Part shown: positions 22,784 through 32,194 of the stretch, in pieces | Position numbering within the stretch: position 1 is the stretch's first letter | How the letters are laid out: each line of letters begins with the position of its first letter | Source: an uncultured Bacteroidales bacterium | Lineage (GTDB): Bacteria > Bacteroidota > Bacteroidia > Bacteroidales > Muribaculaceae | NCBI GenBank assembly: GCA_902800715.1 | Contig: CADCFN010000001.1 | Span: 164,446 to 228,445, forward strand | Length of the DNA stretch: 64,000 nt | Direction of reading: 5' to 3' | Made by a program: the position numbers and the translations under genes | The notes under the pieces: model-generated | What the model saw: the letters and a program-made list of their open reading frames with translations, nothing else | Told to the model about the DNA's origin: nothing | The model's database searches: none

Positions 22784-22832
22784 TTGACAAATCAAAAACA
22801 CAAATATATCTTTGCGATATCAAAATGATATC
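22784..22832 (+). promoter_or_regulatory. Promoter of the SPFH locus, with adjacent GATATC direct/inverted pair
   Basis: TTG (22784-22786), 20 bp, TATCTTTG (22807-22814). Two GATATC copies (22816-22821 and 22827-22832) separated by 5 bp lie at the predicted start of transcription and could be an operator, possibly for the ribbon-helix-helix protein of the same locus; that link is a guess. Confidence 0.65.
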
Positions 22833-22874
22833 ACTTTAAAACAACGAATACTAACTTTTAAATATTTATCTATT

Positions 22875-23838
22875 ATGGAAACGAACGAATTCAACTTCAA
22901 AGGCGTAACAGTAAACGGATTCTTGATGCTGTTTGTAGTCATTCTGTTACCGATACTCGCCATCTGGGGGATTTACCAGAGCATTCTCCTGTTTGATATG
23001 CCTAATGCTGGCGCTTTGCCCACTGTACTGCTCATCGTGAGCATCCTGCTCCTCATCGGCACCTTAATTATATTAGGCGGTTTCCTGATGCTTGAGCCCA
23101 ACACCGCCAGGGTGACTACCTGGTTCGGCAAATACAGCGGCACATTCACCCGCACGGGCTTCTACTGGATCAACCCCTTCTACGGCACCAAGAAAGTCTC
23201 GCTGCGTGCCCGCAACCTGGACGCCTATCAAGGTCAACGACAAGGTGGGCAACCCCGTGATGATTGGTCTGGTACTAGTGTGGAGACTGAAAGACACCTA
23301 CAAGGCCCTGTTTGAGGTAGACTCACAGACGATGGCTTCGACCGACGGCACCTTGAGCGGCAACGCCAAGGGCCTGATGCGCGCCCTTGAGGACTTCGTG
23401 AGCGTGCAGAGCTACGCTGCCTTGAGACAGGTAGCCGGACTGTATGCCTACGACGACAATGACGAGAACACAAAAGAACTGACACTGCGCTCGGGTGGCG
23501 AAGAAATCAACGAGCAGCTCGAGGAGAGACTCAACGAGCGCCTGTCTCTGGCAGGCATCGAGGTGGTAGAGGCACGCATCAACTATCTGGCCTACGCTCC
23601 CGAAATTGCTGCTGTAATGCTTCGCCGCCAGCAGGCCAGCGCCATCATCACCGCCCGCGAGAAAATCGTCGAGGGTGCCGTGAGCATGGTGAAGATGGCC
23701 CTTGACAAGCTCTCGAGCGAGGAAATCGTGGAGCTTGACGATGACAAGAAGGCTTCGATGGTGAGCAACCTGTTGGTTGTCCTTTGTGCCGACGAACAGG
23801 CCCAGCCTGTCGTTAATACCGGCACATTGAATATGTAA
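22875..23838 (+). pseudogene. SPFH/Band 7 protein gene, frameshifted
   Basis: The gene starts at ATG 22875 with two hydrophobic helices (about residues 15-75), then TARVTTWFGKYSGTFTRTGFYWINPF. This N-terminal half of a SPFH (stomatin/prohibitin) protein runs in one frame up to KKVSLRARNLD at about 23222. The next codons continue in another frame as PIKVNDKVGNPVMIGLVLVWRL through to TGTLNM at 23838. A deletion of 2 or 5 bases after CTGGAC (23217-23222) explains it. It may be a real knock-out or a sequence error. SPFH proteins form oligomeric scaffolds on membranes. The next genes look like its usual partners. Confidence 0.88.
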
Positions 23839-23845
23839 CTAATCC

Positions 23846-23924
23846 TTGTCAGTTCTCAGTCGTCAGTTTTCAGTTTTCAGCGGCATCCGCATTCAACTGA
23901 AAACTGACGACTGAGAACTGACAA
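23846..23924. repeat. 30-bp perfect inverted repeat built of CAGTT/CAGTC units
   Basis: 23846-23875 and 23895-23924 are exact inverse complements (30 bp). The 19-nt loop holds its own small hairpin GCGG-CAT-CCGC. The arms are internally repetitive (TCAGTTCTCAG, GTCAGTTTTCAG). No T-run follows. It lies between the SPFH gene and the ribbon-helix-helix gene. Confidence 0.9.
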
Positions 23925-23940
23925 CTAAATCCAGCAGACT

Positions 23941-24153
23941 ATGGCAAAAAAAGCCACAAAAAGTTTTATCCTGCGTGTCGACAGCGACACGATGGATGCC
24001 ATTGAGAAGTGGGCAGCCGACGAGTTCCGCTCGACCAACGGTCAGTTGCAGTGGATCATCACCGAGGCGCTGCGCAAGACCCGCCGTCTGCCCAAGAAGA
24101 AGAAAAGCGAAACCGATAATCAGGAGGACAGTAGCGATGAGACCCAAGTTTAA
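23941..24153 (+). CDS. Small ribbon-helix-helix (Arc-type) DNA-binding protein
   Basis: 70 residues. KSFILRVDSDTMDAIEKWAADEFRSTNGQLQWIITEALRK fits the Arc/MetJ ribbon-helix-helix fold: a beta strand (SFILRVD), helix A (DTMDAIEKWAADEF), turn, and helix B (GQLQWIITEALRK). The Lys-rich tail ends in an acidic stretch. Proteins like this commonly follow SPFH genes in Bacteroidetes. Its last 17 bases overlap the first membrane-protein gene, so the two are probably coupled in translation. It may regulate this locus. Confidence 0.82.
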   Translation: MAKKATKSFILRVDSDTMDAIEKWAADEFRSTNGQLQWIITEALRKTRRLPKKKKSETDNQEDSSDETQV

Positions 24154-25249
24154 CAATAAGAAGCAGACATTATTGTGGAATGTCCTGACTTACGGCACGG
24201 CTATCGTTGCCGGCACGGCTTTGGGTGTATTCTCTAAGCAGCTCGGCACGGCAGGCATGGCAGCTGTTATCGTGACGGCAGCGGTTATCCTGGCAGCATT
24301 ATACTGGTGGGCCTACCGCACTCGCCGAATGGAAGTCGAAGATGCCATCTTGCAAGAGCGCAAGAACAGGACCACGACAGGAGCCATGGACGATACGGCT
24401 CAACAGGTGAATATCTACAGTGTCCAGGTCCACAGTTCTCCCACCAAGGTTATCATGGAAGCGCTCACCGCAGTCCTGCTCATTGCCACATGGGGCATCC
24501 TGTGGAGCCAGCACAAGATGGAATGGAATCACATCACGGTGCCCCTAGTGATGACAATTGCATCGGTTGCAGCGCTTGTCGCAGCACGCTTCCCGTTTAT
24601 GATGAGCGATGCCGAGGAGCACAAGGACATGAGCCAAATCAGTGTTTCGGTCAAGAAGGAACAGATTTACGCACTGATTTTTGCCATCATGGCCATTTTA
24701 GCACCCATCATCGATTTCAAGTGGGGTTTGATTGAAATCATCTTTGTTGTTATTCTTGTCGAGGCATTCTTTGACCGCAAGAAGAAATCGGCGCAAAGTT
24801 CGGAGCAAAGGACCGACAAAGCATTTGACTCCAGCAATATTCAAGTCACCCATGACAAGGAGGAGATGGCCTTTTACATCGTGACAGGCTTCATCATCCT
24901 GACGGCAATGTGTTTCGTGTTGCTATCCTTAGATGCCATCAAGGCTGACTTCATGCGCAGCTCCACGAGGCTGCTATTCATCCTCCTGACCGCTTACACC
25001 GCCTTCACACAGCTTGTCAAGGCCGTTAAGTTTACCAAAGCCGACAAAAGCATCGAGAACATCAGGCAATTCCGCTTGAACGTCCTGGAGGAACGTGTCT
25101 TTGGCGTTGAGTTCGCCATCATCAGCCTGATTCTGGCTATTGGCATTAAGCATCATATCATTGATGCCGCCACTTTGTTAGTGGCCATAATTGCCACACT
25201 TCTTGGCACCTATTTTATCTTCAACTCCCTCATCAAAAAAGCCCGTTAG
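24137..25249 (+). CDS. Array protein 1: multi-pass membrane protein
   Basis: 370 residues from ATG 24137, which overlaps the preceding gene; longer frames upstream are antisense-style extensions. Several transmembrane segments. One copy of the array module is recognisable from about residue 95 (VHSSPTKVIMEALTAVLLIATWGILW), and a module C-terminus ends the protein (VLEERVFGVEFAIISLILAIG ... FNSLIKKAR). A charged loop (DRKKKSAQSSEQRTDKAFDSS) separates the halves. No known domain can be named; the module has a distant resemblance in layout to DUF1648/SdpI-type membrane proteins. Most divergent member. Confidence 0.75.
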   Translation: MRPKFNNKKQTLLWNVLTYGTAIVAGTALGVFSKQLGTAGMAAVIVTAAVILAALYWWAYRTRRMEVEDAILQERKNRTTTGAMDDTAQQVNIYSVQVHSSPTKVIMEALTAVLLIATWGILWSQHKMEWNHITVPLVMTIASVAALVAARFPFMMSDAEEHKDMSQISVSVKKEQIYALIFAIMAILAPIIDFKWGLIEIIFVVILVEAFFDRKKKSAQSSEQRTDKAFDSSNIQVTHDKEEMAFYIVTGFIILTAMCFVLLSLDAIKADFMRSSTRLLFILLTAYTAFTQLVKAVKFTKADKSIENIRQFRLNVLEERVFGVEFAIISLILAIGIKHHIIDAATLLVAIIATLLGTYFIFNSLIKKAR

Positions 25250-25251
25250 TT

Positions 25252-26370
25252 ATGAAACCTATTACTGAACCAAAAATGAAGATGTTGCGATATGCCTATG
25301 CTATACTACTGTGCTTGGTTATCGCAGTGCTGTTTAGTCTAAATCTCTTCAGCCATAAATGGATAATGTACGTTGTCATCGCCGTTGGTTTTGTCCTTGG
25401 GTTTGTAATCGAAGATTACCTCAAGAAGAAATTCCCTGAGACTTTTCCAAAATCCGAGAATGAAAAAAAAGCCGAGCAGCTTGTCAAAGATATCGAAGAA
25501 GGCAAACTTGACGACAATACAATCAAGTTGCCGCGCACCCTTTTCGGTACCCTGTGCGAGATTATCGCTGTCGGTATCATCGGCTATGCCCTTTACCGAG
25601 CATGGACACTGGACCAGCGCATCTGGTCAATCATTGGCCTTTCGGCGATTAGCATCTTCGGCCTGTTCGGATCCTATATTACTGACATTAAGAAGAAAGA
25701 TTACGATCCGAGGTATATTGGAGCCTATGAGGCTATGGGCAATCGTGGCCATGTAACCGCAATAATTGCTGCATTGTTAGCGCTTCTGTTGACCTACTTC
25801 ACCGATCCAGAAGCCTATTACAGATGGAGGCCCCTCTTTTTCTTGTGCGGATTGTTTTTTGCGTTCAGGATACCCGTCCAACACATCCTCTACAAGCGAA
25901 GCGCTGCCCTGATGGCAAAAGTCAACAATTACAATCCTGGAAACGTCCGTGTGGCACGCACTCTTGAGGGCACAGCCTTTGAAACGGCAACTGTGCTTAT
26001 GCTCATCGGCGGGTGGTGTGCTGCAGCCATCAAGCACCTGTTGGCGGGCAAGGGAATCCTGGATATTCCCGTCGCCGACCTCATCGTGTGCTCGGTATTC
26101 TCCATCGGTTTCCTCATCCTTGCCTATTTCCCGACGTGGATGAGTGGCGCTGCCACCTTCAAGAGTGACGAGCAAGTCTTGTCCAGCATTAGGCGTTGCC
26201 GCATTTCCGCTATTGTGCTCGCTCTGTTTGCGCTCATCCTTCCTTTCATCGTACCCGACCTGGACGAGAAAATGCTGGGATACCTTTATATCGCAGTGCT
26301 CCTCATCATCTCGATTAGCAGCTACTTTATTAAATCCGGCAGAGAAAACAACCCTACAAACAACGAATAA
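25252..26370 (+). CDS. Array protein 2: two-module membrane protein
   Basis: 372 residues starting 2 bp after the previous stop. Two module copies are visible, each opening with the array signature: KLPRTLFGTLCEIIAVGIIGYALYRAW and RVARTLEGTAFETATVLMLIGGWC. Each is followed by hydrophobic helices and the second by RRCRISAIVLALFALILPFI. The N-terminus has two further helices. Inner-membrane location is predicted; function unknown. The tail (KSGRENNPTNNE) is hydrophilic. Confidence 0.78.
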   Translation: MKPITEPKMKMLRYAYAILLCLVIAVLFSLNLFSHKWIMYVVIAVGFVLGFVIEDYLKKKFPETFPKSENEKKAEQLVKDIEEGKLDDNTIKLPRTLFGTLCEIIAVGIIGYALYRAWTLDQRIWSIIGLSAISIFGLFGSYITDIKKKDYDPRYIGAYEAMGNRGHVTAIIAALLALLLTYFTDPEAYYRWRPLFFLCGLFFAFRIPVQHILYKRSAALMAKVNNYNPGNVRVARTLEGTAFETATVLMLIGGWCAAAIKHLLAGKGILDIPVADLIVCSVFSIGFLILAYFPTWMSGAATFKSDEQVLSSIRRCRISAIVLALFALILPFIVPDLDEKMLGYLYIAVLLIISISSYFIKSGRENNPTNNE

Positions 26371-26374
26371 GACT

Positions 26375-27007
26375 ATGAAACTGAGTAGTAATAGCGCATT
26401 CAATCTACTGGGCGTCGTATGCATGGTTGTCCTCATCGGGGCTCTCATGCTGGCAGGATGGGCAGGATTGTCAACGACGGGAATCATCGTCACGGGAGTT
26501 GTTGTCGCAGCAATCGGCAATTTCGTGGCCATCATATTGTTGGCCAAGTACAGCAGCGAGCAAAACGAACCCGCCGATGGTTTCCATCTTGATGAGGTGA
26601 GAGTGCCCCGCACCGCTTTGAGTACCGGGATTGAAATCATCACAGGTGTCCTCGTGGCCATCGCATGGGCAGTATCTGCCAAAAACGGCATCTTCACCGA
26701 GGACGATGGCAGTTTCAGTTTCAGAACGCTGTTCGGCATGCTACTTTTCACCTGCACCATCATTTTCATGCTCTGTGACACCTATAGCCCTGGTGGCATC
26801 AATAACGCGGGCATCCTGACCAATATCAAACAGGTCAAATTGGCTGTTTACATGAATCGCTTGTTTGCCGTTCTGTTTGCAGCAGGAATGCTGGTATTCT
26901 CTTTTCCCGCGCTCCGGCAGCAGAACTGGATTGTTATCGGGGTGGCTGCGGTATTGCTTCTAGCCTATATTGCTTTTCGCATCCTCATCCGCAAGGCAAG
27001 GGATTAA
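26375..27007 (+). CDS. Array protein 3: single-module membrane protein
   Basis: 210 residues from ATG 26375, 4 bp after the previous stop. The layout is two N-terminal helices, the signature VPRTALSTGIEIITGVLVAIAWAVSAKNG, then FTEDDGSFSFRTLFGMLLFTCTIIF, then LTNIKQVKLAVYMNRLFAVLFAAGMLVFSFP and a basic tail RILIRKARD. It gives the cleanest view of one module. FTEDDGSF recurs almost unchanged in array protein 6, so these two are close relatives. Confidence 0.8.
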   Translation: MKLSSNSAFNLLGVVCMVVLIGALMLAGWAGLSTTGIIVTGVVVAAIGNFVAIILLAKYSSEQNEPADGFHLDEVRVPRTALSTGIEIITGVLVAIAWAVSAKNGIFTEDDGSFSFRTLFGMLLFTCTIIFMLCDTYSPGGINNAGILTNIKQVKLAVYMNRLFAVLFAAGMLVFSFPALRQQNWIVIGVAAVLLLAYIAFRILIRKARD

Positions 27008-27058
27008 GCTGGTTCAGTGAAACCACATCAGTTCTCAATTTCTAAAACCGAAGAGATT

Positions 27059-27676
27059 ATGGACAGAACAAAAGCTAACAATCTGATTGCAGCCGTCTTG
27101 TTTGGAGTATTGTTTCTGATCATCGTGCTCTATATACATGGCAGAATCAGCCATCTTGTTGCCATCATTTCGGGAATCGGCATTATTTGTGGATACACTA
27201 TAACGCGCCATTTCCTCTCTGCTGCAACGTCCGAAGAAGATAAAGAGAAAGAAAAAGTACAACGTGCATTAAGAAAGACTAAGGTGACTCGCACTCGCGA
27301 GGGGACTATATTTGAAGTGGCAACAGCCCTGATTCTTGTCTGCTCGCTGGTCATCGGTATTGCCAATCACACGTTCGAACAAGGTGACTCTACCCTAAGG
27401 GATTATGCGTTTTGCTGCATCTCAGCCATCGCGCTCCTCATTCTGGCCTATCATCCGTTTTGGGGGTCTTCACTCGGCAACTTCACCAATGCCGAGCAGT
27501 ATAAGCTCCTGATCAGAAAAAACCGAGTGGGTGCGGTTGCAACAGCCTTGCTAGCGCTAATCGTCAGCATCCGTCCATTATGGAACACTCTGGTTATTGC
27601 CATCTTGATAGGCCTTGTCGTTGTTTGGTGGGGCATTGACTTCCTCTTTTTACTCTTGTATAAAAGGAACAAATGA
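27059..27676 (+). CDS. Array protein 4: single-module membrane protein
   Basis: 205 residues from ATG 27059. The upstream GTG at 27017 is in frame but less likely. Two N-terminal helices, signature KVTRTREGTIFEVATALILVCSLVIGIANH, then YHPFWGSSLGNFTNAEQYKLLIRKNRVGAVATALLALIV. The TNAEQYKL segment is reminiscent of the NAxxQY region of DUF1648-type proteins. Its start region (TAAAACCGAAGAGAT before ATGGACAGA) is repeated almost exactly before array protein 7. Confidence 0.78.
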   Translation: MDRTKANNLIAAVLFGVLFLIIVLYIHGRISHLVAIISGIGIICGYTITRHFLSAATSEEDKEKEKVQRALRKTKVTRTREGTIFEVATALILVCSLVIGIANHTFEQGDSTLRDYAFCCISAIALLILAYHPFWGSSLGNFTNAEQYKLLIRKNRVGAVATALLALIVSIRPLWNTLVIAILIGLVVVWWGIDFLFLLLYKRNK

Positions 27677-27722
27677 GGCTGACCTCATATTTCATTAACC
27701 ACATTAAAAAAGAGAATTGGTT

Positions 27723-28856
27723 ATGAAACACCTGAACAGAAATATCTATCTCCTCCTTATCGGTATTATTGAAGCGGTCTTCATCATCTACACGGTCGTC
27801 ATGTCTAGAAGGGAAAACATTGAGACCGGGGAACTTGTGTTCGGTTGCTGCGCCATGGCAATCATGGCAGCGATATGCATTGTTGTGGCCTTTATTAATA
27901 AGATTGGTAACAAGAAAGAGGAGAGTCCTAAACTGGACTTTACCGAAGTGCCGCGCTCACGTGAGGGAGCCATCTTTGAAGTGCTCACACTACTGATTAT
28001 CGCTGTCGCCTGGACAGTGGCGATTGTCACCAATCGGTTTTGGATGATGGAAGGCTCCTTCTTTTTCCTCGAGCCCGTAACCATGTTTACACTGACAATC
28101 CTTGCCATTACCGTCCTGTGGATTGTGTACATGCCAAGATTTCTTTCAATGGTAAGAAGGCATACTCATGTGAAGCAGGTGACCCTTGAAGTGCTCATGT
28201 GCCGCGTGCTGGCCGTTGAACTTGCGATGTTCGTCCTTGGGTATGCCCTACCTTTGGGAGATTTATCAACAGGGTTCTTCTACCAAACAATCATTTTCTA
28301 CATTGCCGGAGCAGTTCTTCTTGTCACCGTCGCCGTCTTTCGCTACCTCATCTACAAAGCTCAGAGCAATCCCGAGGACATCGAGCACGACGCTGTTGTT
28401 GACGGTTCCAACATCAATCAGGTAAGAACGCGGAACACCGTCGTGGGCACCATGATTGAAGTACTCGTCGCCGTCCTTGTAGTCCTGGCATGGGTACTGG
28501 GAGCGAAAAATGGCGTCTTCACCCAGGACTACTATCACAATAACCTCGACTACGATAGGCGGCTCTCGTGCTTGGTCTTTTTCACCATCCTCATCATCTG
28601 GACGCTCTGGCGTGCCCATCGCCCCGACGAAATCATAAAAAAGGGAAAGTGGCCCAAGGTGACCAATCTCAAACAGGCCAGATTGGCTACTTGGGTGTTT
28701 CGCGTGTATGCCATAATTATTGCCATATTCATGTTGTTAATTCCCTTCCAGCGTTTTAACGCAATTTGGCTTACGTTAGGAATGGCGGTCGTGACGTTCA
28801 TCACGGGGCTCATTTTTATCATCCTCATCTACGGGGCTAGAGACGAAAAGAGTTGA
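27723..28856 (+). CDS. Array protein 5: two-module membrane protein
   Basis: 377 residues from ATG 27723. N-terminus MKHLNRNIYLLLIGIIEAVF matches that of array protein 6. Two modules: EVPRSREGAIFEVLTLLIIAVAW and RTRNTVVGTMIEVLVAVLVVLAWVLGAKNG. Both end with the module tail: VLMCRVLAVELAMFVLGYALPLG...YLIYKAQS and VTNLKQARLATWVFRVYAI...LIYGARD. Many transmembrane segments. Function unknown. Confidence 0.8.
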   Translation: MKHLNRNIYLLLIGIIEAVFIIYTVVMSRRENIETGELVFGCCAMAIMAAICIVVAFINKIGNKKEESPKLDFTEVPRSREGAIFEVLTLLIIAVAWTVAIVTNRFWMMEGSFFFLEPVTMFTLTILAITVLWIVYMPRFLSMVRRHTHVKQVTLEVLMCRVLAVELAMFVLGYALPLGDLSTGFFYQTIIFYIAGAVLLVTVAVFRYLIYKAQSNPEDIEHDAVVDGSNINQVRTRNTVVGTMIEVLVAVLVVLAWVLGAKNGVFTQDYYHNNLDYDRRLSCLVFFTILIIWTLWRAHRPDEIIKKGKWPKVTNLKQARLATWVFRVYAIIIAIFMLLIPFQRFNAIWLTLGMAVVTFITGLIFIILIYGARDEKS

Positions 28857-28894
28857 TGATAATATTAATTTGCATTACTTAAACACGCAATATT

Positions 28895-30019
28895 ATGAAA
28901 CATTTAAACAGAAATCTTTACCTAATCATTGTGGGTATTGCCGAAGTACTCTTCTTTACCTACGCGATGGTGCTGTATAGAAGGGGAACCATTGATTCCT
29001 CGGACCTGCAGATGGGCGGCATCTTAGCGGGAGGTGTAGGAGTGCTGGCAGTTATTCTGGCATTCAGCAAATCCTCGTGGTCTGGGGAAAATAAAGAAGG
29101 TAATTTTAACCCGGCCTTGAGCGAAGTGTCGCACACCCGCGAGGGAATCATCTTTGAAGCACTCACAGGGTTGATTATTGTTGGCGCATGGATATTGGCA
29201 TTCGCCTCCGATAGGTTTTGGATTATTGATAACTTCTTCTCTTTCCTCCACCCCGCACTCATGTTTGTGCTATCAATCCTGACCATTACCTTCTTGTGGA
29301 TTGTGTATCTGCCAAGTTTTAAGTCAAAGACAAGAAAGCACAATGTGGAGCAGGTTGTCCTTGAAGTCCGCATGTGCCGTGTGCTTGCTGTAGAATTTGC
29401 ATTATTCGTTCTGGCAAGCGCCCTACCTCTGGGTGATTACTCAATGGTCTGCATCTTCATTATTGGAGCAGCTCTTCTCCTCGCCATCGCTATCTTCCGC
29501 TATCTCATCTACCAAGCTCGACACAACTTTGCAGACGATTATAGCAGCGAAAAGAACGAACACGCTAGCGATTTCGACATCGATAAGGTAAAAATGCCAC
29601 GCACCGCCTTGGGCACTTTGACCGTAATCCTCATTGGCGCTCTCGTAATCATCGCATGGGTGATGTCAGCTATAAACGGCCGCTTCACCGAGGATGATGG
29701 CAGTTTCAATATCGGGGCGCTGTTCGTCCTGCTCTCTTGCACCATTGGAACCCTCAAACTCATCTGGGACACATACAAACTTGGCAACATGAGAGACGTG
29801 GGCCAGTTGACCAATCTTAAACAGGCAAAACTGGCTGTTTTGCTGTACCGCATGTTCGCCTTAATGCTCGGCATAATAATGCTGCTATATGCCTTCCCGA
29901 GTATTAGCAAGAGTATTGATCCACTATGGGTGTTGGCTGGATATCTTGCGATACTGGCAATCCTGTTTTTCACCTTCCGCACCCTCATCCGCAGGGCAGG
30001 AGATCAGCAAGGTCATTGA
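28895..30019 (+). CDS. Array protein 6: two-module membrane protein
   Basis: 374 residues. The N-terminus MKHLNRNLYLIIVGIAEVLFF and the first module (EVSHTREGIIFEALTGLIIVGAW...VRMCRVLAVEFALFVLASALPLG) match array protein 5. The second module (KMPRTALGTLTVILIGALVIIAWVMSAINGRFTEDDGSF) matches array protein 3 more closely. So it looks like a recombinant or duplicated product of the neighbours, which shows the array evolves by local duplication. Function unknown. Confidence 0.8.
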   Translation: MKHLNRNLYLIIVGIAEVLFFTYAMVLYRRGTIDSSDLQMGGILAGGVGVLAVILAFSKSSWSGENKEGNFNPALSEVSHTREGIIFEALTGLIIVGAWILAFASDRFWIIDNFFSFLHPALMFVLSILTITFLWIVYLPSFKSKTRKHNVEQVVLEVRMCRVLAVEFALFVLASALPLGDYSMVCIFIIGAALLLAIAIFRYLIYQARHNFADDYSSEKNEHASDFDIDKVKMPRTALGTLTVILIGALVIIAWVMSAINGRFTEDDGSFNIGALFVLLSCTIGTLKLIWDTYKLGNMRDVGQLTNLKQAKLAVLLYRMFALMLGIIMLLYAFPSISKSIDPLWVLAGYLAILAILFFTFRTLIRRAGDQQGH

Positions 30020-30053
30020 AACTGCATTATATTAAATTAAAACCGAAGAAATC

Positions 30054-30230
30054 ATGGACAGAAAGAAAACGCTTTGTATGTTCGCCATCATCGAGACGCT
30101 GGTTAACTTTATCATCATTACCCTGTTCTTGATGGGCAGGTTGAGCCTCACAGGTTTCAGCATCGCACTTGCTGTCATCTTGCTCATCTCGGCGGGTATA
30201 GTCTTACTCATCATCCGCAAGACCGAGTGA
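30054..30230 (+). CDS. Array protein 7: 58-aa two-helix membrane protein
   Basis: ATG 30054, 34 bp after array protein 6. It starts MDRKKTLCMFAII, has two hydrophobic segments around a short GRLSLTG turn, and ends LLIIRKTE. The bases before its start and its first codons copy those of array protein 4, so it is the N-terminal two helices of that paralogue without the module. It may be a functional small membrane protein or a truncated duplicate. Confidence 0.6.
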   Translation: MDRKKTLCMFAIIETLVNFIIITLFLMGRLSLTGFSIALAVILLISAGIVLLIIRKTE

Positions 30231-30395: not shown

Positions 30396-31232
30396 ATGAA
30401 CAAGCGTGTGGACCGGTTTTGGCAACGCTGGGGCAATACCGTGAGGTTTCTCTTGTGGGGCTTGACTGTGGTGCTGGTATGCTTTTTGCTGTATCGCGTC
30501 ATGGTGAACAACAGTGCCACACATCTCGAACCCCTGAGCGAGGGCATGCGCGACAGCTTGATGACCGTCGGCATGCCACGTTCTGTGCCCGACACGCTGG
30601 TGAGGTATCACGCCTTTGACGTGCACTTCAACAGTCAGCAGGGCATTGCCAACTGTGCGGCCTATGAGCTCACAACCAACGAGCTTAACGGGACTGTCGA
30701 ACGTGCGGGTGATTTCTTGCAGGACACGAGCGTTAATGGCTGTCCGTCGCCTGCCGATTATGCCGGCAGCGGAATGGACCGAGGTCACCTGGTGCCTGCC
30801 GCCGACCTCAAGTGGGACGAGGCTGCCATGCAAGAGTCGTTCAAGCTGACCAACGTCGCACCCATGCACAAGGCACTCAACGAGGGCGGTTGGGCACGGT
30901 TGGAAGAGAAAGTGCGCGAGTGGACCGTGCGTGACAGCGCGCTGCTGGTGTTCACGGGACCCGTCGTGAGCAACGGCGACACGACGCTGGCGAGTGGTCG
31001 GGTAAAGGTGCCGAGTGCTTATTTCAAGGTCATCTTGGCACCGTGCGTGAGGCCGATGCGCGCCATTGCATTCATCTACCCAAACGGTAAGAGCGGGGGA
31101 CGGCTGAGCCAATATGCCGTTAACGTTGACGAGGTGGAGCGCCGCACAGGGCTGGATTTCTTCCCCACCCTGCCCGCCACCGAGCAGCAACGGCTTGAGA
31201 GCACCGTCAATCTCAACGCTTTCACAAATTAG
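30396..31232 (+). CDS. DNA/RNA non-specific endonuclease (NUC1), membrane-anchored
   Basis: 278 residues from ATG 30396. One N-terminal transmembrane segment (about 17-35) puts the enzyme outside the inner membrane. The NUC1 (beta-beta-alpha-metal) domain follows: DRGHLVPAADLKW at residues 128-140 holds the catalytic His131; FKLTNVAPMHKALNEGGWARLEEKVREW supplies the metal-binding Asn region. LVFTGPVV and SAYFKVILAP are also typical. It degrades DNA and RNA without sequence preference, probably for nucleotide uptake. A second NUC1 gene follows 23 bp downstream. Confidence 0.9.
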   Translation: MNKRVDRFWQRWGNTVRFLLWGLTVVLVCFLLYRVMVNNSATHLEPLSEGMRDSLMTVGMPRSVPDTLVRYHAFDVHFNSQQGIANCAAYELTTNELNGTVERAGDFLQDTSVNGCPSPADYAGSGMDRGHLVPAADLKWDEAAMQESFKLTNVAPMHKALNEGGWARLEEKVREWTVRDSALLVFTGPVVSNGDTTLASGRVKVPSAYFKVILAPCVRPMRAIAFIYPNGKSGGRLSQYAVNVDEVERRTGLDFFPTLPATEQQRLESTVNLNAFTN

Positions 31233-31255: not shown

Positions 31256-32194
31256 ATGAAGAATATGAAACAATTAGCAAAGATTTGGATTCTGGTAGCT
31301 GCGATGGTCATGGGCGGTGCCCTGCCACCGCAAGTGATGGGCGACAGCAGCATTACCCTGCAATGGAGTGCCCAGGCCAAGAGCAAAAAGAAATCCAAGA
31401 AAAAAGCCAAAAAGTCCAAAAAGTCCAAATCCAATCCTGCTGTAGCTTCACCGCTGGCGAGCGTTCCCACCATCGGCAAAACGGCAACGAACACGAAAGT
31501 GCCGATGCAGCAGACCAACGCACTGCTGGCGGTAAAAGTGCCCAAATCAATAGACAACGAGGTACTGAACTATAAGGCCATCAGAGTAAACTTCAACCCG
31601 TCGTTGAGGATTCCCAACTGCGTTGCCTATGAATTGACGGCGACGATGGTCGATATGAGTGATGCACCAGGACACGAGGTGCGCAAAAACTTCAAGTATG
31701 CCAAGGACCCCAACGTCGCCTCATGCCCCGAAAGCTGGGAATACCGCAGCAGCGGTTATAGCCGTGGCCACATGGCACCAGCGATGGACATGCGGTGGGG
31801 CAAGACAGAAATGGCGCAGTGCTTCTACATGACCAACATGTGCCCGCAGGACACCAAACTCAACAACGACAACTGGCGTTTGCTGGAGGAGAAGATTCAC
31901 CGTTGGGCAAAGCGCGACAAGCGCATCCTGGTCTTCACAGGTCCCATCGTGGGCAAGAACCCCAAGATGATTGGCAATGACAAGCAGAACATCGCCGTGC
32001 CCGAGGCCTTCTTTAAAGTGCTGTACGCCCCCGAGCAGCGCCGCGCCATCGCCTTTATCTACAACAATGAGCCGTGCCCGGGAAACATCAGCAAATATGC
32101 GGTCACTGTTCAAGAGGTGGAGCGCCGCACAGGGCTCACCTTCTCCAGCGCCATCCCCAAGCGCCAATGCAAAGTTGAAGACTGGGACTTCTAA
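31256..32194 (+). CDS. DNA/RNA non-specific endonuclease (NUC1), secreted
   Basis: 312 residues. Signal peptide near 1-29, then a Lys/Ser-rich linker (42-59, AKSKKKSKKKAKKSKKSKS) that could bind DNA or the cell wall. The NUC1 domain has SRGHMAPAMDMRW at 169-181, with Ser in place of the usual Asp of DRGH but the catalytic His172 kept, and FYMTNMCPQDTKLNNDNWRLLEEKI. It is a paralogue of the gene before it. The Asp-to-Ser variant is known to be tolerated in family members, so activity is likely. Confidence 0.9.
   Translation: MKNMKQLAKIWILVAAMVMGGALPPQVMGDSSITLQWSAQAKSKKKSKKKAKKSKKSKSNPAVASPLASVPTIGKTATNTKVPMQQTNALLAVKVPKSIDNEVLNYKAIRVNFNPSLRIPNCVAYELTATMVDMSDAPGHEVRKNFKYAKDPNVASCPESWEYRSSGYSRGHMAPAMDMRWGKTEMAQCFYMTNMCPQDTKLNNDNWRLLEEKIHRWAKRDKRILVFTGPIVGKNPKMIGNDKQNIAVPEAFFKVLYAPEQRRAIAFIYNNEPCPGNISKYAVTVQEVERRTGLTFSSAIPKRQCKVEDWDF

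Follow-up and report, generated by a model that had tools for sequence, protein, structure and literature searches.

An array of membrane proteins of SdpI-type descent behind SPFH and ribbon-helix-helix genes in ruminant-gut Bacteroidales

The membrane protein SdpI carries the domain DUF1648 (PF07853). In the SdpRI operon of Bacillus subtilis it is described as both an immunity protein and a receptor that sequesters the autorepressor SdpR (PMC1626106). Bacillus also has the SPFH protein YdjI, reported to act in membrane stress with two membrane partners, YdjG and YdjH (PMC8581546), and gut Bacteroidales carry rAID, described as recombinase-associated orphan type VI secretion system (T6SS) immunity arrays, some with SUKH domains (PMC12247911). 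Here we describe an array of seven membrane-protein genes, A1-A7, lying behind genes for an SPFH protein and a ribbon-helix-helix (RHH) protein in the window, a 64,000-nt stretch of DNA from an uncultured member of the Bacteroidales (contig CADCFN010000001.1).

As in the SdpRI operon, a small DNA-binding gene adjoins a gene for a membrane protein of DUF1648 descent, a candidate operator lies at the operon's own promoter, and autoregulation is likely; the array operon differs in its RHH regulator, its added SPFH gene and its many membrane proteins per repressor, and no toxin operon is known near it, none having been searched for. With DUF1648 proteins the array modules share descent and a four-helix plan, and intermediates at the same position bear both signatures, but the modules have no PF07853 match, their helix 1-2 stretch is shortened, a hairpin is fused in front, and they have been doubled and multiplied. 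The pspA-ydjGHI operon of B. subtilis also combines an SPFH gene with two kinds of membrane-protein genes (PMC8581546), a likeness of operon layout and not of kinship among the membrane proteins; the array row has an RHH gene and an operator, and no PspA gene was recognised in it, no PspA profile having been run. The rAID loci, as described in PMC12247911, are likewise multi-gene arrays, whereas the array described here is a single integral-membrane family at one chromosomal site. No description of the array or the operon was found among the titles and abstracts listed by searches of open-access papers. Judged from its sequence, the array operon is a strongly remodelled SdpI-type operon.

Architecture and descent of the array

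The array occupies 24137..30230, where the earlier note had placed it, and comprises seven genes:

A1, 24137-25249, + strand: hairpin and two modules, 370 amino acids (aa)
A2, 25252-26370, + strand: hairpin and two modules, 372 aa
A3, 26375-27007, + strand: hairpin and one module, 210 aa
A4, 27059-27676, + strand: hairpin and one module, 205 aa
A5, 27723-28856, + strand: hairpin and two modules, 377 aa
A6, 28895-30019, + strand: hairpin and two modules, 374 aa; missing in the sister genome G036
A7, 30054-30230, + strand: 58 aa, consisting only of the hairpin; a homologue of the 60-aa hairpin protein encoded separately in Prevotella-type operons

In each of A1-A6 a two-helix hairpin at the N-terminus precedes one or two homologous four-helix modules, with six or about ten predicted helices per protein. 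The arrangement of single and double modules recognised in the earlier note is real (one in A3 and A4, two in A1, A2, A5 and A6), and so are the homologous modules of A1-A6; the count of about nine modules across seven proteins has to be revised to ten, because A1 has a second module without the motif, and A7 is a lone hairpin. The first hairpin helix of A1 falls below the hydropathy threshold used, and A1 residues 7-61 match a separate hairpin protein (BLASTP, 6e-4). An all-against-all BLASTP comparison connects every A1-A6 pair and so upholds the proposed homology of the segments; strong pairs include A3 with the C-terminal half of A6 (46% identity, E 2e-42) and A5 with A6 (39%, 1e-87), and weak ones A1-A5 (best E 0.03) and A2-A3 (best E 0.09). 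The match between A4 and A7 is confined to the hairpin (E 0.004).

Wider comparisons used 80 named loci from GTDB, the best 80 of 572 from an SPFH-alignment scan. These include 22 contigs from the window's genus, all ruminant-gut metagenome-assembled genomes where a source is named, and 58 others labelled mostly Prevotella or Prevotellaceae, with Xylanibacter, Bacteroidaceae, Bacteroides and Phocaeicola also represented. A hidden Markov model (HMM) built only from the ten segments of the window has 92 matches at E < 1e-3 among the 2622 open reading frames (ORFs) of these loci, 184 of which encode four or more predicted transmembrane (TM) helices, and all 92 matches end 0.6-5.7 kb past the SPFH gene on the same strand. 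Positive-charge counts in 50 aligned proteins place both protein ends, the RTxEGTxxE linker and the loop joining module helices 2 and 3 on the cytoplasmic side, the remaining loops having few positive charges. The AlphaFold2 model of A3 contains six long helices (predicted local distance difference test, pLDDT, 81.9; predicted template modelling score, pTM, 0.74). None of A1-A7 matches a Pfam, NCBIfam or PADLOC family at its cut-off. Some array genes in L091, L092, L093, L094 and L108 lack the hairpin and encode a module only (150-162 aa), resembling the Prevotella form.

In other Bacteroidales, genes for an SPFH protein, an Arc-like RHH protein and a four-helix (4TM) protein lie in a row, with a separate 60-aa hairpin gene in places. 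A module-profile match is found near the RHH gene in 35 of the 58 other named loci; none was found there in the other 23, some of which are cut by contig ends. Eight Prevotella-type loci have the 60-aa two-helix gene between the RHH and 4TM genes, and all eight hairpins match A7 or an array N-terminus (BLASTP, best 5e-7, weakest 0.001). The gene following RHH passes the PF07853 cut-off in Xylanibacter ruminicola D31d (L203, 5.4e-11) and Prevotella L193 (1.2e-11), as does the third operon gene of L164. The same L203 and L193 proteins match, at 2.4e-18 and 2.7e-19 respectively (database size set to 1000), a module profile whose training set was confined to loci of the window's genus and family. 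In G552, which belongs to another family, SPFH, RHH and DUF1648 genes stand in a row, and the DUF1648 protein (1.5e-14) carries RTTEGTVFE and matches the window-only profile at 1e-13.

Variants of the array motif (RTLEGN, RSTEGT, RTTEGT) occur within the DUF1648 proteins of L203, L193 and G552, and the proteins of L226, L246, L201 and L219 have the motif and lack the DUF1648 loop. A DUF1648 profile built without G552 matches the single 4TM protein of L104 at 2.5e-15. For six DUF1648 proteins taken from other contexts, the window-only profile gives 0.016 at best or no match, so the link between array and DUF1648 runs through the SPFH-linked proteins. The AlphaFold2 model of the L203 protein (pLDDT 90.1) has a beta-hairpin between helices 1 and 2, at the site of the DUF1648 signature, and the matching stretch is shortened in the array modules.

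A module tree was built from 113 sequences, to which 16 of the 43 loci of the window's genus (see below) contributed 68 modules; the rest are three single proteins from genus g55, 35 Prevotella-type sequences and seven DUF1648 proteins. Its alignment has few columns and many of its forks are without resolution, but all sampled genus modules group with exactly the loop-less proteins of L226, L246, L201 and L219 (98% by the Shimodaira-Hasegawa-like approximate likelihood ratio test, SH-aLRT). The ten modules of the window take ten different positions, each beside relatives from other species. The a modules of A5 and A6 cluster with a single-module protein of G033 (99%) and their b modules with A3-type singles (80%, weak); because the a and b modules group with different classes, these two double proteins look like fusions of different classes.

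The earlier note had offered a tie to DUF1648/SdpI from layout only, and it is borne out by the profile matches of G552, L203 and L193 and by the tree, which indicate that the array modules descend from DUF1648 (SdpI-type) 4TM proteins. By the same evidence the DUF1648 signature was lost already in the related loop-less proteins, and in the window's genus hairpin and 4TM module were fused and then multiplied into paralogue classes. The array is the form to which one ruminant-gut genus has remodelled the SPFH - RHH - (2TM) - 4TM row of Bacteroidales. With a clear ancestor in the Prevotella-type operons, the array family is not an orphan.

Turnover, exchange and selection in the genus

Of 101 genomes sampled from the window's genus, 42 have the SPFH gene at E <= 1e-50; G035, whose contig retains only the end of that gene, brings the number of loci to 43. 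The array interval was taken to run from the RHH gene to the first endonuclease, which serves as a boundary. A survey of SPFH-RHH neighbourhoods, suggested in the earlier note, gives 0-6 module genes and 0-10 modules in the 28 complete intervals, the window having the maximum of ten; the G311 interval contains only a lone hairpin gene and that of G280 a degenerate remnant. Among the 15 loci without an endonuclease on the available stretch, seven have 2-4 array genes and eight show none, and of these eight G028 ends at the RHH gene, whereas the remaining seven were read for 1.5-12 kb beyond it. With A6 as query, 18 of 81 genomes match at E <= 0.001; all 18 belong to the 49 genomes searched from the genus, and the 32 genomes of other families give no match.

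The window and its sister G036 are 95.0% identical in DNA over A1-A5; A6 is absent from G036, and A7 is only 64% identical. The fifth array gene of G036 was considered as an A5/A6 hybrid, a reading rejected on finding that it is the A5 orthologue (94%). In G036 (locus L087), unlike in the window, a 448-aa ORF also separates A7 from the endonuclease, and ORFs of 401, 332 and 288 aa lie within the arrays, or at them, in G347, G009 and G267.

Exchange was examined in 325 locus pairs from the 26 of 43 loci that have both array and endonuclease, by comparing synonymous divergence (dS) of array genes with that of their flanks. Of 116 array gene pairs with more than 60% identity, 20, from 17 locus pairs and not mutually independent, have an array dS less than half that of the endonuclease (NUC1) and, where computable, of SPFH, with endonuclease dS itself above 0.3; the reverse pattern, an array dS more than twice that of both flanks, is seen in two. 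For A3 of the window and G353, for example, dS is 0.28 and that of the flanks 1.39 and 1.09. Since array dS lies well below flank dS in 20 pairs against two in reverse, individual array genes have apparently been exchanged between species, and the interval comparisons indicate that they are gained and lost between species.

The ratio of nonsynonymous to synonymous divergence (dN/dS) in eight close pairs is 0.11-0.65 for array genes and 0-0.05 for the SPFH domain; two misaligned RHH rows and two unassigned downstream ORFs with ratios above 1, which are not array genes, were excluded. Pooled over 35 disjoint module pairs, dN/dS is 0.19 at cytoplasmic, 0.27 at helix and 0.24 at outward positions. 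These values indicate that the array is under purifying selection. Faster change at outward positions, as predicted by immunity or an arms race at the outer face, was not found in the 35 module pairs.

Operon control and flanking genes

The SPFH and RHH genes lead the row, as the earlier note had it, and the following features surround the array:

22784..22814, + strand: operon promoter, TTGACA (22784-22789) and TATCTTTG (22807-22814)
22806..22833, + strand: candidate tandem operator, three ATATC repeats with 11-bp spacing (22806, 22817, 22828)
22875..23838, + strand: SPFH/Band 7 protein with two N-terminal TM helices; Pfam Band_7 (PF01145) 1.9e-10 on the C-terminal part
23846..23924, + strand: perfect 30-nt inverted repeat between SPFH and RHH, a copy of a dispersed palindromic repeat
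23941..24153, + strand: Arc-like RHH protein, 70 aa; RHH_5 16.0 bits and Arc 15.1 bits, below cut-off
30396-31232 and 31256-32194, + strand: two DNA/RNA non-specific endonuclease genes; Pfam Endonuclease_NS 1.3e-49 and 5.4e-48

The close spacing and overlap coupling first noted are confirmed, in that A1 overlaps the RHH gene by 17 nt and the successive gaps are 2, 4, 51, 46, 38 and 34 nt; a single transcript from the SPFH promoter through the array is therefore likely. The promoter meets 10 of 12 consensus positions in our scan, and TATCTTTG fits the Bacteroidota -7 consensus, TAnnTTTG. The candidate operator overlaps this -7 box, and its last two ATATC repeats lie inside CGATATCAAAATGATATCA (22815-22833); tandem half-sites 11 bp apart suit Arc-like proteins. 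A TATCTTTGnGATATCAAAAtGATATCA-like block upstream of SPFH is kept across the genus and is recognisable in several other genera despite differing flanks. The site TGATATCANNNTGATATCA is present with <= 2 mismatches in all 41 genus loci examined (the other two, whose broken or cut frames hid the SPFH start, were left out), and shuffled sequences give a minimum of 3. In 12 genomes searched whole, sites with <= 1 mismatch are confined to the SPFH promoter, where each of the 12 has a site with <= 2 mismatches; two-mismatch sites also occur elsewhere, up to eight of them in G552.

The operator and the RHH gene occur together. Among 15 loci of other genera (L101 was dropped, no start being found), the operator is present at <= 3 mismatches in 10 of 11 with an RHH match and in none of four without, and of the 80 named loci 75 have both, two have RHH without the site and three the site without an RHH match, two of these three ending within 400 nt past SPFH. 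The pattern GATATCN5GATATC with one mismatch was discarded as evidence for a regulon because it is too loose. The RHH protein is a probable repressor of its own operon, and the restriction of sites with <= 1 mismatch to the SPFH promoter suggests that it probably controls no other.

The window SPFH protein passes the PF01145 cut-off (41.5 bits against 23.6), and its G552 homologue scores 78.4 bits. Alignment with three relatives shows the window frame to be broken in this assembly near 23222 by a small out-of-frame deletion; 40 of the 42 genus genomes have an open frame of at least 322 residues, the exceptions being the window and G021 (L092), in which the frame changes elsewhere, and each break may be either an assembly error or real. 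One genus member, G022 (L123), has a diverged SPFH (71%) and no array; in the SPFH tree this protein falls, on long branches, with another genus, and it is possibly a replacement. Scores against Arc (PF03869, cut-off 20.4 bits) are 15.1 for the window, 20.6 for L082, which passes, 20.3 for L105, 18.9 for L081 and 17.3 for L164.

BLAST finds 103 pieces of the inverted-repeat element in the window's own genome, with both palindrome strands counted. Between SPFH and RHH a strong hairpin, which takes several unlike sequences, is present in 33 of 33 array loci and two of 10 others, one of the 10 being G028, which cannot show an array; this co-occurrence was rejected as evidence of function because the phylogeny permits only 3-4 independent comparisons. 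The first endonuclease gene begins about 160 nt past A7, and each endonuclease has one hydrophobic N-terminal segment. An endonuclease follows the array site in 28 of 43 genus loci and was not found on the available stretches, some of them short, of the other 15; the pair is probably a separate unit. The earlier note did not mention that the proteins are built of hairpins and modules, that the operon has a candidate operator, that the SPFH frame is broken or that copy number varies between species.

Possible functions of the array operon

We tentatively favour, with somewhat less than even confidence, the reading of the array operon as an SdpI/SdpR-like sensor or immunity operon, because a DUF1648-descended protein adjoins a probable autorepressor, with SPFH added. 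The RHH protein, sitting on the tandem operator over the promoter, would keep expression low. On meeting a membrane-active agent, the 4TM modules would use their conserved cytoplasmic faces, namely RTxEGTxFE and the loop that connects the second module helix to the third, to draw the repressor to the membrane, perhaps joined in this by the SPFH assembly. The operon would then be turned on, and additional membrane proteins and SPFH would shield the membrane. Distinct modules may recognise distinct agents, which would account for the gene turnover. Descent, operon form, a candidate operator and turnover have support in the sequence; ligand, signalling and protection are inferred. An elaboration that we think unlikely is a defence locus in which many receptors report to one repressor: changing DUF1648-derived receptors on a single SPFH ring would meet different attacks and act through one RHH protein and one operator, and species would trade and fuse the receptor genes.

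Several observations weigh against a sensor or immunity operon. The array has no known toxin, ligand or phenotype, and SdpR belongs to a DNA-binding family other than RHH. Pfam shows no PF07853 domain in any of A1-A7, and binding of the RHH protein to the operator is judged from position, repeat form and co-occurrence. No positive selection is seen by dN/dS, outward positions (0.24) not exceeding helices (0.27). In seven genus loci that retain SPFH and RHH, the 1.5-12 kb read past RHH contains no array gene, so the array is dispensable.

The main rival, to which a sensor or immunity operon is preferred and which strikes us as rather unlikely, is a membrane-stress scaffold without any specific toxin, in which hairpin and module proteins would be anchors and clients of an SPFH oligomer, like YdjG and YdjH for YdjI in Bacillus, and their number would tune membrane domains, fluidity or stress repair. 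The SPFH domain is the most constant part of the locus (dN/dS 0-0.05) and first in the row, SPFH itself begins with two TM helices, and YdjI and PspA of B. subtilis are reported to reach the membrane only with two membrane proteins of the same operon (PMC8581546). However, none of the ORFs in the row was recognised as PspA-like by searches that included no PspA profile, and a scaffold alone leaves unexplained both the apparent exchange of single genes between species and the ten distinct module classes of one array. Such exchange, with the presence/absence variation and the fusions, would suit a store of orphan immunity genes, each protein neutralising one membrane-targeting effector or bacteriocin of neighbours and the RHH/SPFH site being merely handy for expression; orphan immunity arrays are described in gut Bacteroidales (PMC12247911). 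We regard such a store as quite unlikely, given that matches to A5 or A6 cluster at one place per genome searched and no positive selection is seen; no effector was found, though none was looked for.

That tandem duplicates come and go near-neutrally, by recombination at a tolerant site and with little effect of gene number on fitness, would fit the range of 0-10 modules, the remnant of G280 and the lone hairpin of G311, but is improbable in view of the array dN/dS of 0.11-0.65 and the retention of the same paralogue classes across species. Least probable are transporter or channel subunits: the six or about ten helices per protein would be compatible, but the only matches are sub-threshold (e.g. 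NF049893 to A1 at 7e-4, 19.9 bits against a cut-off of 120), and no transporter family above cut-off, no PDB match by Foldseek at E <= 0.001 and no ATPase or substrate-binding gene in the row were found. The Pfam comparison proposed in the earlier note thus reveals no known transporter family.

In Bacteroidales this locus connects SPFH proteins, whose bacterial partners are poorly known, with membrane proteins of the SdpI type and with a dedicated local regulator. The array shows how a small sensor or immunity operon, if it is one, may grow into a gene array that is shared and reshuffled among gut species, and its proteins may help cells to sense or withstand membrane attack. The simple Prevotella form, with three or four genes, would make its function testable in a cultured rumen bacterium.

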